Assembly (NCBI RefSeq): GCF_008831545.1
Contig: NZ_CP044523.1
Location: 992,001-1,056,000 of the forward strand
Reading direction: 5' to 3'
DNA from: Halorussus halophilus
GTDB taxonomy: Archaea > Halobacteriota > Halobacteria > Halobacteriales > Haladaptataceae
DNA length: 64,000 bases
The notes under the pieces are model-generated. The model was not told the DNA's origin. It worked only from the letters and a program-made list of their open reading frames with translations, and searched no databases. Positions 23,364-56,290 of the stretch are shown here, one piece after another. Position 1 is the first letter of the stretch. Every line of letters begins with the position of its first letter. Made by a program: the position numbers and the translations under genes.

Positions 23364-23570
23364 ACTTCTTCGAAATCCCCGACCCGCTCGCGGTCGCTGA
23401 CACGGGATATTCGCGGCTCTCCACACAGTCCGCCGCGAATACTGGCCCGCCGCGAATACTGGCCCGCGCAGACGACCATGGCAAGCGCGAGCGCGCCGCC
23501 CCTTTCAGTCCCACCCTATTGGCTACTGTCACCGAGCTTTTCGGGTGGTTTGGTTCATCAAGCGCATCTG
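23364..23570 (+). repeat. R-type hairpin element, copy 1 (solo)
   Basis: It begins ACTTCTTCGAAATCCCCG and later carries the hallmark CCCCTTTCAGTCCCACCC (from about 23499), followed by about 50 nt still alignable to other R copies. An outer stem is formed by CGCTCGCG (23385-23392) and CGCGAGCG (23486-23493). Inside lies a 17-bp direct repeat CCGCGAATACTGGCCCG in two adjacent copies. No L block is nearby. The element fills most of the 455-nt gap before purF. Confidence 0.75.
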
Positions 23571-31450: not shown

Positions 31451-31637
31451 GGCGCGCGCTGGCGAAACCCCGAAGGGTGTTTCGCCGAAGTCGCGTGAGG
31501 GATGAGCATCACAGACTCGGAAAGCGCGCTACGGCGCGCTTTCCGTAGCGAGAAGCGCAGTCGGTTGGGGAGGACGTGGCCGTCGCGGTGCGGAGCGGTG
31601 CTGTGCGGTTTCTCCTTGGTTTCGGGAGTAGCTAGCG
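31451..31637 (+). repeat. L-type hairpin element, copy 1
   Basis: It starts GGCGCGCGCTGGCG, then hairpin 1 (GCGAAAC..GTTTCGC, 31462-31485), GTGAGGGATGAGCA, and hairpin 2, a perfect 12-bp stem (31518-31529 with 31534-31545, loop TACG). The conserved core begins GCAGTCGGTTGGGGAGG at 31557 and ends TCGGGAGTAGCTAGC at 31636. It occupies half of the gap before the Gfo/Idh/MocA gene; an R copy follows that gene in the same orientation. Confidence 0.8.
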
Positions 31638-32963: not shown

Positions 32964-33090
32964 GCTTCTTCGAAAGCCCCGGCGCGCTCGCGGTCGCTCT
33001 GTTGACGCGAGCGCGCCGCCCCTTTCATTCCCACCCTGTAGAATGGTTAGTCGGGCGGTTTCGGTGGTAGGTCTCGCTGGCCGATACTGC
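32964..33090 (+). repeat. R-type hairpin element, copy 2
   Basis: It starts CTTCTTCGAAAGCCCCG. GGCGCGCTCGCG (32981-32992) pairs perfectly with CGCGAGCGCGCC (33006-33017) over a 13-nt loop, and the hallmark CCCCTTTCATTCCCACCC follows. Further similarity to the other copies runs to about 33090. It is the most compact R copy, with no internal hairpins, and sits 56 nt after the oxidoreductase gene. Confidence 0.8.
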
Positions 33091-51471: not shown

Positions 51472-51611
51472 GGCGCGCGCTGGCGTGACCTCGTGTCACG
51501 CCATCTCCGTGCGAGGGATGAGCGAATGGACGTGAGCGAATCGGCTGGGGAGGGTGTGGCTCTCGCGGTGCTGTGCGGGCGGTCTTCTAGGTATCGGGTG
51601 TAGCTAGCTTC
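51472..51611 (+). repeat. L-type hairpin element, copy 2
   Basis: It starts GGCGCGCGCTGGCG. Hairpin 1 is GGCGTGAC-CCTCGT-like loop-GTCACGCC (51482-51502), a stem unrelated in sequence to the hairpin in copy 1. GTGCGAGGGATGAGCGA follows, then the core TCGGCTGGGGAGGGTGTGGC from 51541, ending GTAGCTAGCTTC at 51612. Hairpin 2 is reduced to an imperfect fold here. An R copy follows 44 nt later in the same orientation. Confidence 0.8.
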
Positions 51612-51655: not shown

Positions 51656-51880
51656 CTCCTAGAAAGCCCCCGTGCGCTAACTCCCGCGACTTGCTGTCGT
51701 TCGAAAGACCCGACGGGTCTTTCGTGATGACGAGAGAGCGATGCTCTCTCGAACCACGCTCCTCACTGCGTTACGGTGCTTACTTCGTCGGGGTTCGTTT
51801 AGCGCACGGCCCCTTTCAGTCCCACCCTGTGGAATGGGTCGCCGGGCGTTTCCGATGGTTCGATTTACTGAGCGCGTTCT
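51656..51880 (+). repeat. R-type hairpin element, copy 3
   Basis: It starts ACCTCCTAGAAAGCCCCCG. The outer stem CCGTGCGCTAA (51670-51680) pairs with TTAGCGCACGG (51799-51809). Inside are two perfect hairpins, CGAAAGACCCG-A-CGGGTCTTTCG (51702-51724) and CGAGAGAGC-GAT-GCTCTCTCG (51731-51751). The hallmark CCCCTTTCAGTCCCACCC follows from about 51810. Together with the L copy it fills the 473-nt gap between the DUF5822 and HAD genes. Confidence 0.85.
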
Positions 51881-56110: not shown

Positions 56111-56290
56111 GAAACTAGCTACTCCCGAAACCGAGGAGAGACCGCACCGCAACCGCAGCAGCCACACCCTCCCCAACCGACTGCGGTCCTCAGGTTCGGA
56201 CGACGCGACGAGTCGCGTCGTCCGCGTTGTGGTCCTCGTCCCTCGCGCGAAGTTAGCGCGACACGCTCTGCGGTCGCGCCAGCGCGCGCC
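56111..56290 (-). repeat. L-type hairpin element, copy 3
   Basis: On the minus strand it starts GGCGCGCGCTGGCG (56290-56277). Hairpin 1 is GCGCGAC/GTCGCGC (56256-56262 with 56273-56279). GCGCGAGGGACGAGGA follows, then hairpin 2, a 28-nt perfect palindrome (56197-56224). The core GCAGTCGGTTGGGGAGGG ends TCGGGAGTAGCTAG. Neither stem sequence matches those in copies 1 and 2. The L-then-R order is the same as at the other loci, but reversed on the chromosome. Confidence 0.85.

Follow-up and report, generated by a model that had tools for sequence, protein, structure and literature searches.

Dispersed between the genes of haloarchaea, the L-block is a non-coding repeat, and one of its strands carries a fold of paired arms that has been preserved by evolution, probably as DNA and possibly as RNA. 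On balance, and with slightly better than even confidence, the L-block is interpreted here as a REP/BIME-like haloarchaeal repeat whose L strand folds, is selected as single-stranded DNA and is recognised by a protein.

Dispersal and architecture of the repeat

The window (the whole stretch of 64,000 nucleotides that was analysed) holds three L-block copies, all lying where the earlier note had placed them (Table 1). Their longest perfect stems were compared with those of shuffled sequences (p = 0.003 for the 31451 copy, 0.0001 for the 51472 copy and 0.02 for the minus-strand copy), and the numerous further copies carry more weight as evidence than these three. A pattern made of the conserved flanks joined by 10-40 nt of any sequence, in which pairing was not a condition, gave 92 hairpin-1 matches in the whole genome; its reversed control gave 9. 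The same architecture is also found in Haladaptatus, Halosimplex, Halorarius and Halomicrobium, and plasmid matches occur in Halorussus, Haloarcula, Halobaculum and Natrinema; where these plasmids are annotated, none of the matches falls under a feature. The sampled blocks overlap no called gene, by crude gene calls, and are thus intergenic. A micro-ORF that would start at GTG and stop at the TAG in the tip was rejected, its frames (26/22/21) carrying no coding signal, as was a phage or viral origin, with zero matches in phage sequences and a single, unrelated-looking viral match.

Table 1. Positions in the window of the L-block copies and their parts.
Feature	Positions	Strand	Remark
L-block, focal copy, GGCGCGCG to GTAGCTAGC tip	51472..51608	+	
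P0, outer stem of hairpin 1: GCGCG 51473-51477 with CGTGC 51508-51512, one G.T	51473..51512	+	CGYGC partner also genome-wide
P1 (hairpin 1), GGCGTGAC-CTCGT-GTCACGCC	51482..51502	+	
P2 arm, zipper form: GAT GA GC GA AT GGAC GT GA GC GA ATC	51517..51542	+	
Conserved G-rich box GGCTGGGGAGGGTGTGG	51543..51559	+	
Tip CGGGTGTAGCTAGC, one among several alternative right ends	51595..51608	+	
L-block copy carrying hairpin 2	31451..31636	+	
P1 of the 31451 copy: GGCGAAAC/GTTTCGCC, inner CCC-GAA-GGG (GAA triloop), bulged T	31461-31486	+	
P2 arm of the 31451 copy: 5-nt stem GCATC 31506-31510 / GAAGC 31552-31556, central A.A	31501..31562	+	type-B rules
Hairpin 2 of the 31451 copy, 12-bp stem	31518-31545	+	
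L-block copy	56113..56290	-	
Hairpin 1 of the minus-strand copy, GCGCGAC/GTCGCGC	within 56241-56290	-	
Hairpin 2 of the minus-strand copy: arms of 13 bp, 2-nt centre, GGACC/GGACC as outer 5-nt stem	56197..56224	-	

The block reads, in order, GGCGCGCG-CT, stem 1, YGCGAGG, arm 2, GG.TGGGGAGG.GTGTGGC, GCGGT repeats and tip. Single copies have a sharp left edge at GGCGCGCG, while the right ends differ between otherwise near-identical copies (the window copy and L099); similarity between copies sometimes extends 200-250 nt past the core start. Head-to-head pairs, with inverted GTAGCTAGC ends, are mostly separated by a linker of 38-42 nt, though many copies are single. In pairs such as those of L018, L030 and L067, this linker has an A/T-richer centre, roughly GTGAAAATRCGCGAAACTGA, a possible promoter or recombination core. 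A copy is absent from most congeners at the two sites tested for this, and at one site the genome G004 has the insert and G015 lacks the whole of it. This patchy presence speaks for mobility of the block.

Some other features accompany the block. The four G runs of the G-rich box and its homologues could possibly form a two-layer G-quadruplex on the same strand, and one copy (L037) carries a tandem, GTGCTGTGGG-like expansion after this box. A second dispersed repeat, GGCCCCTTTCAGTCCCACCC, lies at 51797-51828, 23486-23517 and 33006-33037 of the window, and its relatives directly follow the L-block in Halosimplex and in some Halorussus copies.

Pairing in hairpin 1 and arm 2

Hairpin-1 stems come in dozens of sequences and almost all are paired: 61 different stem-1 arms occur among 89 parsed copies, poorly pairing ones counted in, and 77 of the 89 score at least 12 in the stem search, as do 14% of shuffles. 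In 40 of the 55 distinct GGCGCGCGCTG copies the 7-nt arm is matched by its exact reverse complement, where shuffled partners gave a mean of 6.8 and a maximum of 15. The hairpin is surrounded by an outer stem, GCGCG/CGYGC. Its five-base loops are mostly C..GT or T..AT, and the loop base adjoining the 3' arm is T in 47/71 copies of this genome and in 27/29 of a hand-picked genus set. The differing but paired stems that the earlier note had described for hairpin 1 were thus found in all three window copies and are supported genome-wide; pairing is preserved in most copies but not in an exception class of about eight, which carry GGAGCGACGACAGGAGCGACTC or near variants and are unpaired. A non-pairing direct repeat, GGAGCGACGRCAGGAGCGACTC, stands in place of hairpin 1 at some sites, frequently in one partner of a head-to-head pair (near 487112, 2436274, 2529074, 2643203, 3001457, 3179440 and 3610462 of G000:C1, and near 88911 of G000:C2).

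Arm 2 (P2) sits between GAGG and GG.TGGGG, has a closing stem GAY...RTC and occurs in two forms. In the zipper form, 2-bp units alternate with tandem GA/GA (G.A pairs) under a triloop cap, and the first unit is paired in 88% of 74 arms (38% when shuffled, at most 58%). In the second form (type B), a 5-nt stem comes after GAY-GA, and its central mismatch is fixed, being A.A in 66 cases and A.C in 19; this stem uses 21 arm combinations, its positions 2 and 4 using all four Watson-Crick types between them, and in this genome hairpin 2 stands above it. The focal copy has no hairpin 2 and carries the shorter zipper form of the same arm instead. Hairpin 2 of the 31451 copy was correctly described in the earlier note, while the supposed 28-nt perfect palindrome of the minus-strand copy is indeed a hairpin but falls short of perfection at its two central bases. 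Nested hairpin modules, GAGG^TCTTCGGGAACG...CTTCCGGT^GGATGAG, are found at the same insertion point in many copies (arm 2 of L014, L016, L072 and L093, for example).

Of 193 P2 loops, 109 are GNA (GAA 56, GGA 27, GCA 19, GTA 7), as are 6/579 in shuffled arms, loop sequence having played no part in the folding score; in other genera the loop is GNA in 17/25 arms. Triloops are closed by C-G in 117/134 cases, and the internal loops are GA/GA (242) or GA/GCA or GCA/GA (128).

Covariation and change at orthologous sites

Covariation was assessed with a home-made equivalent of R-scape, in which each column was simulated along the tree of 44 type-B copies with its number of changes held. Two pairs of the type-B 5-nt stem covary past this phylogeny-aware null, with G values of 38.8 (5:9 with 3:-9) and 36.0 (5:7 with 3:-7), the largest of 42,000 null values being 26.6. 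In the same 44-copy simulation the 5:10 pair (E 0.1) and the closing pair (E 0.9) are below significance, the statistic of the latter being weakened by its wobbles.

Because the congener sites orthologous to two of the window copies have diverged too far for base-level comparison, closer pairs of genomes were used. Between G004 and G015, which are 94.7% identical at one locus, both bases of a stem-1 pair differ in an orthologous copy, C-G becoming A-T. In the comparison of G002 with G007 (90%), the inside of stem 1 is swapped wholesale together with its loop, and arm 2 changes from CT/AG to CC/GG and from GC/GC to AC/GT, with one zipper unit lost. Gene conversion from another copy could still be the source of these changes. 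Core identity in five orthologous pairs is 97, 91, 80, 96 and 69%, and that of the DNA 80-180 nt beyond the core is 64-78%; the core is often, not always, better kept than nearby intergenic DNA, this being so in most of the five pairs.

The covariation is real, and with two inner-arm pairs beyond the null, in a test of the type suggested in the earlier note, and orthologous copies changing on both sides together, the conclusion of that note that a folded RNA or single-stranded DNA is selected is supported. The stems lie at homologous positions and are therefore not unrelated insertions, though other hairpin modules are inserted in some copies. The earlier note's picture of whole stems being replaced holds for the inner hairpin of one orthologous pair (L241/L258), but much of the variation proceeds pair by pair.

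The selected molecule and known systems

The strand that is selected can be read from the wobbles. In the closing stem, counted over distinct arms of this genome and the genus (GAT/ATC 98, GAC/GTC 62, GAT/GTC 32, GAC/ATC 1), T.G outnumbers C.A by 32 to 1; T.G is tolerated and C.A is not, and therefore it is the L strand that is selected as a single strand. RNA can also form GNA triloops and tandem G.A pairs, and the RNA versions of GNA or GNNA mini-hairpins are probably much weaker. In DNA, two G-C pairs capped by a GNA or GNNA loop give a mini-hairpin of very high stability, the melting temperature of GCGAAGC being 78 C (PMC4686876), and such loops contain a sheared G-A pair (PMC6479982). GNA triloops being extra-stable loops of DNA mini-hairpins, these sequences lead us to lean towards single-stranded DNA over RNA.

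The conserved fold of the L-orientation strand comprises the P0-P1 hairpin and the P2 zipper or mismatch arm, followed by the G-rich box; under the single-stranded DNA reading, this strand would be exposed during replication or recombination. A protein would read the hairpin shape and the G-rich box, not the stem sequence, and thereby mobilise or maintain the copies, while stem letters would drift freely as long as pairing holds.

A fold selected as RNA, either a structured 3' UTR or a non-coding RNA element that is spread by transposition or recombination and stabilises, processes or regulates the upstream transcript, is a serious if doubtful alternative. The strand asymmetry is equally compatible with it, G-U being allowed, and so is the better conservation of the core in most of the five orthologous pairs. 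Single copies lie preferentially downstream of the 3' end of a same-sense gene (34 against 13, a hand count on crude gene calls), often 20-90 nt past the stop codon, a placement that fits RNA and counts against the single-stranded DNA reading. On the other hand, the loops are DNA-favoured GNA triloops rather than the tetraloops typical of RNA, copies are intact in divergent or antisense settings too, wobble pairs are few within P2 (74/2333), and no Rfam family scores above its gathering cut-off for the L-block, a known Rfam family being rejected accordingly.

It is improbable that the fold is not selected and that mutational template switching, or gene conversion between arms and copies, keeps the inverted repeats perfect. 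The wholesale swap in L241/L258 and the many copies with inserted hairpin modules would suit such a process, but template switching, whose products are perfect palindromes, cannot favour T.G over C.A, maintain the central A.A/A.C through 21 arm combinations, or hold GA/GA loops in register or GNA loops. It is highly improbable that the block is a cruciform or a double-stranded protein site in which the two strands both pair, as inverted repeats and head-to-head pairs of near-constant spacing might suggest, since a T.G reads as C.A on the complementary strand and tandem G.A likewise becomes T.C, so that the asymmetry argues against selection on both strands.

To our knowledge, natural selected folds of single-stranded DNA are rare except at transposon ends, integron sites and replication origins. 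The covariation, drawn from dozens of copies per genome and several families, makes the L-block accessible to determination of its structure, to capture of proteins and to genetics in archaea that can be cultured; should the molecule prove to be RNA, Rfam would lack an abundant family of structured RNAs. No description of this family, of its fold or of its range among archaea was found in the literature covered, most subscription papers lying outside it.

With the structured non-coding RNAs of Rfam, the L-block shares covarying stems on one strand, whereas its loop types favour DNA. PATEs and IS605-type transposon ends of haloarchaea (PMC3119063) are likewise non-coding with palindromes near their ends, but PATEs lack inverted terminal repeats, while L-block pairs have inverted GTAGCTAGC ends. 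No linked Y1 transposase partner of the PATE/IS605 kind was found: Y1_Tnp is absent from the block-rich genomes G011 and G002, and around Y1 genes there are scattered single motif matches only and no L-block pair. Haloarchaeal MITEs and SMRs (PMC3119063) are short, transposase-free and mobile, with inverted ends that the L-block has in paired form; a covarying internal fold is absent from the description of them that was consulted, and for the L-block no target duplication is evident and no parent transposon was found.

Dispersed structured repeats as a kind are known from bacteria. REP/BIME/REPIN elements with TnpA_REP (RAYT) (PMC6006769, PMC3116915) share with the L-block its many intergenic copies, imperfect hairpin, inverted pairs and one-strand structure of single-stranded DNA type. 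The L-block differs in having GGCGCGCG and not GT[AG]G at the 5' foot of the hairpin, in lacking a linked Y1 protein or a tnpA_REP gene flanked by repeats, and in being archaeal and a longer, two-hairpin unit with a G-rich box. Tentatively, and somewhat short of even confidence, this widespread haloarchaeal repeat may be a selected folded single strand of chromosomal DNA, built of G.A zippers and GNA mini-hairpins and read by a non-Y1 protein; it would then be the archaeal equivalent of REP repeats, with a DNA fold peculiar to it.
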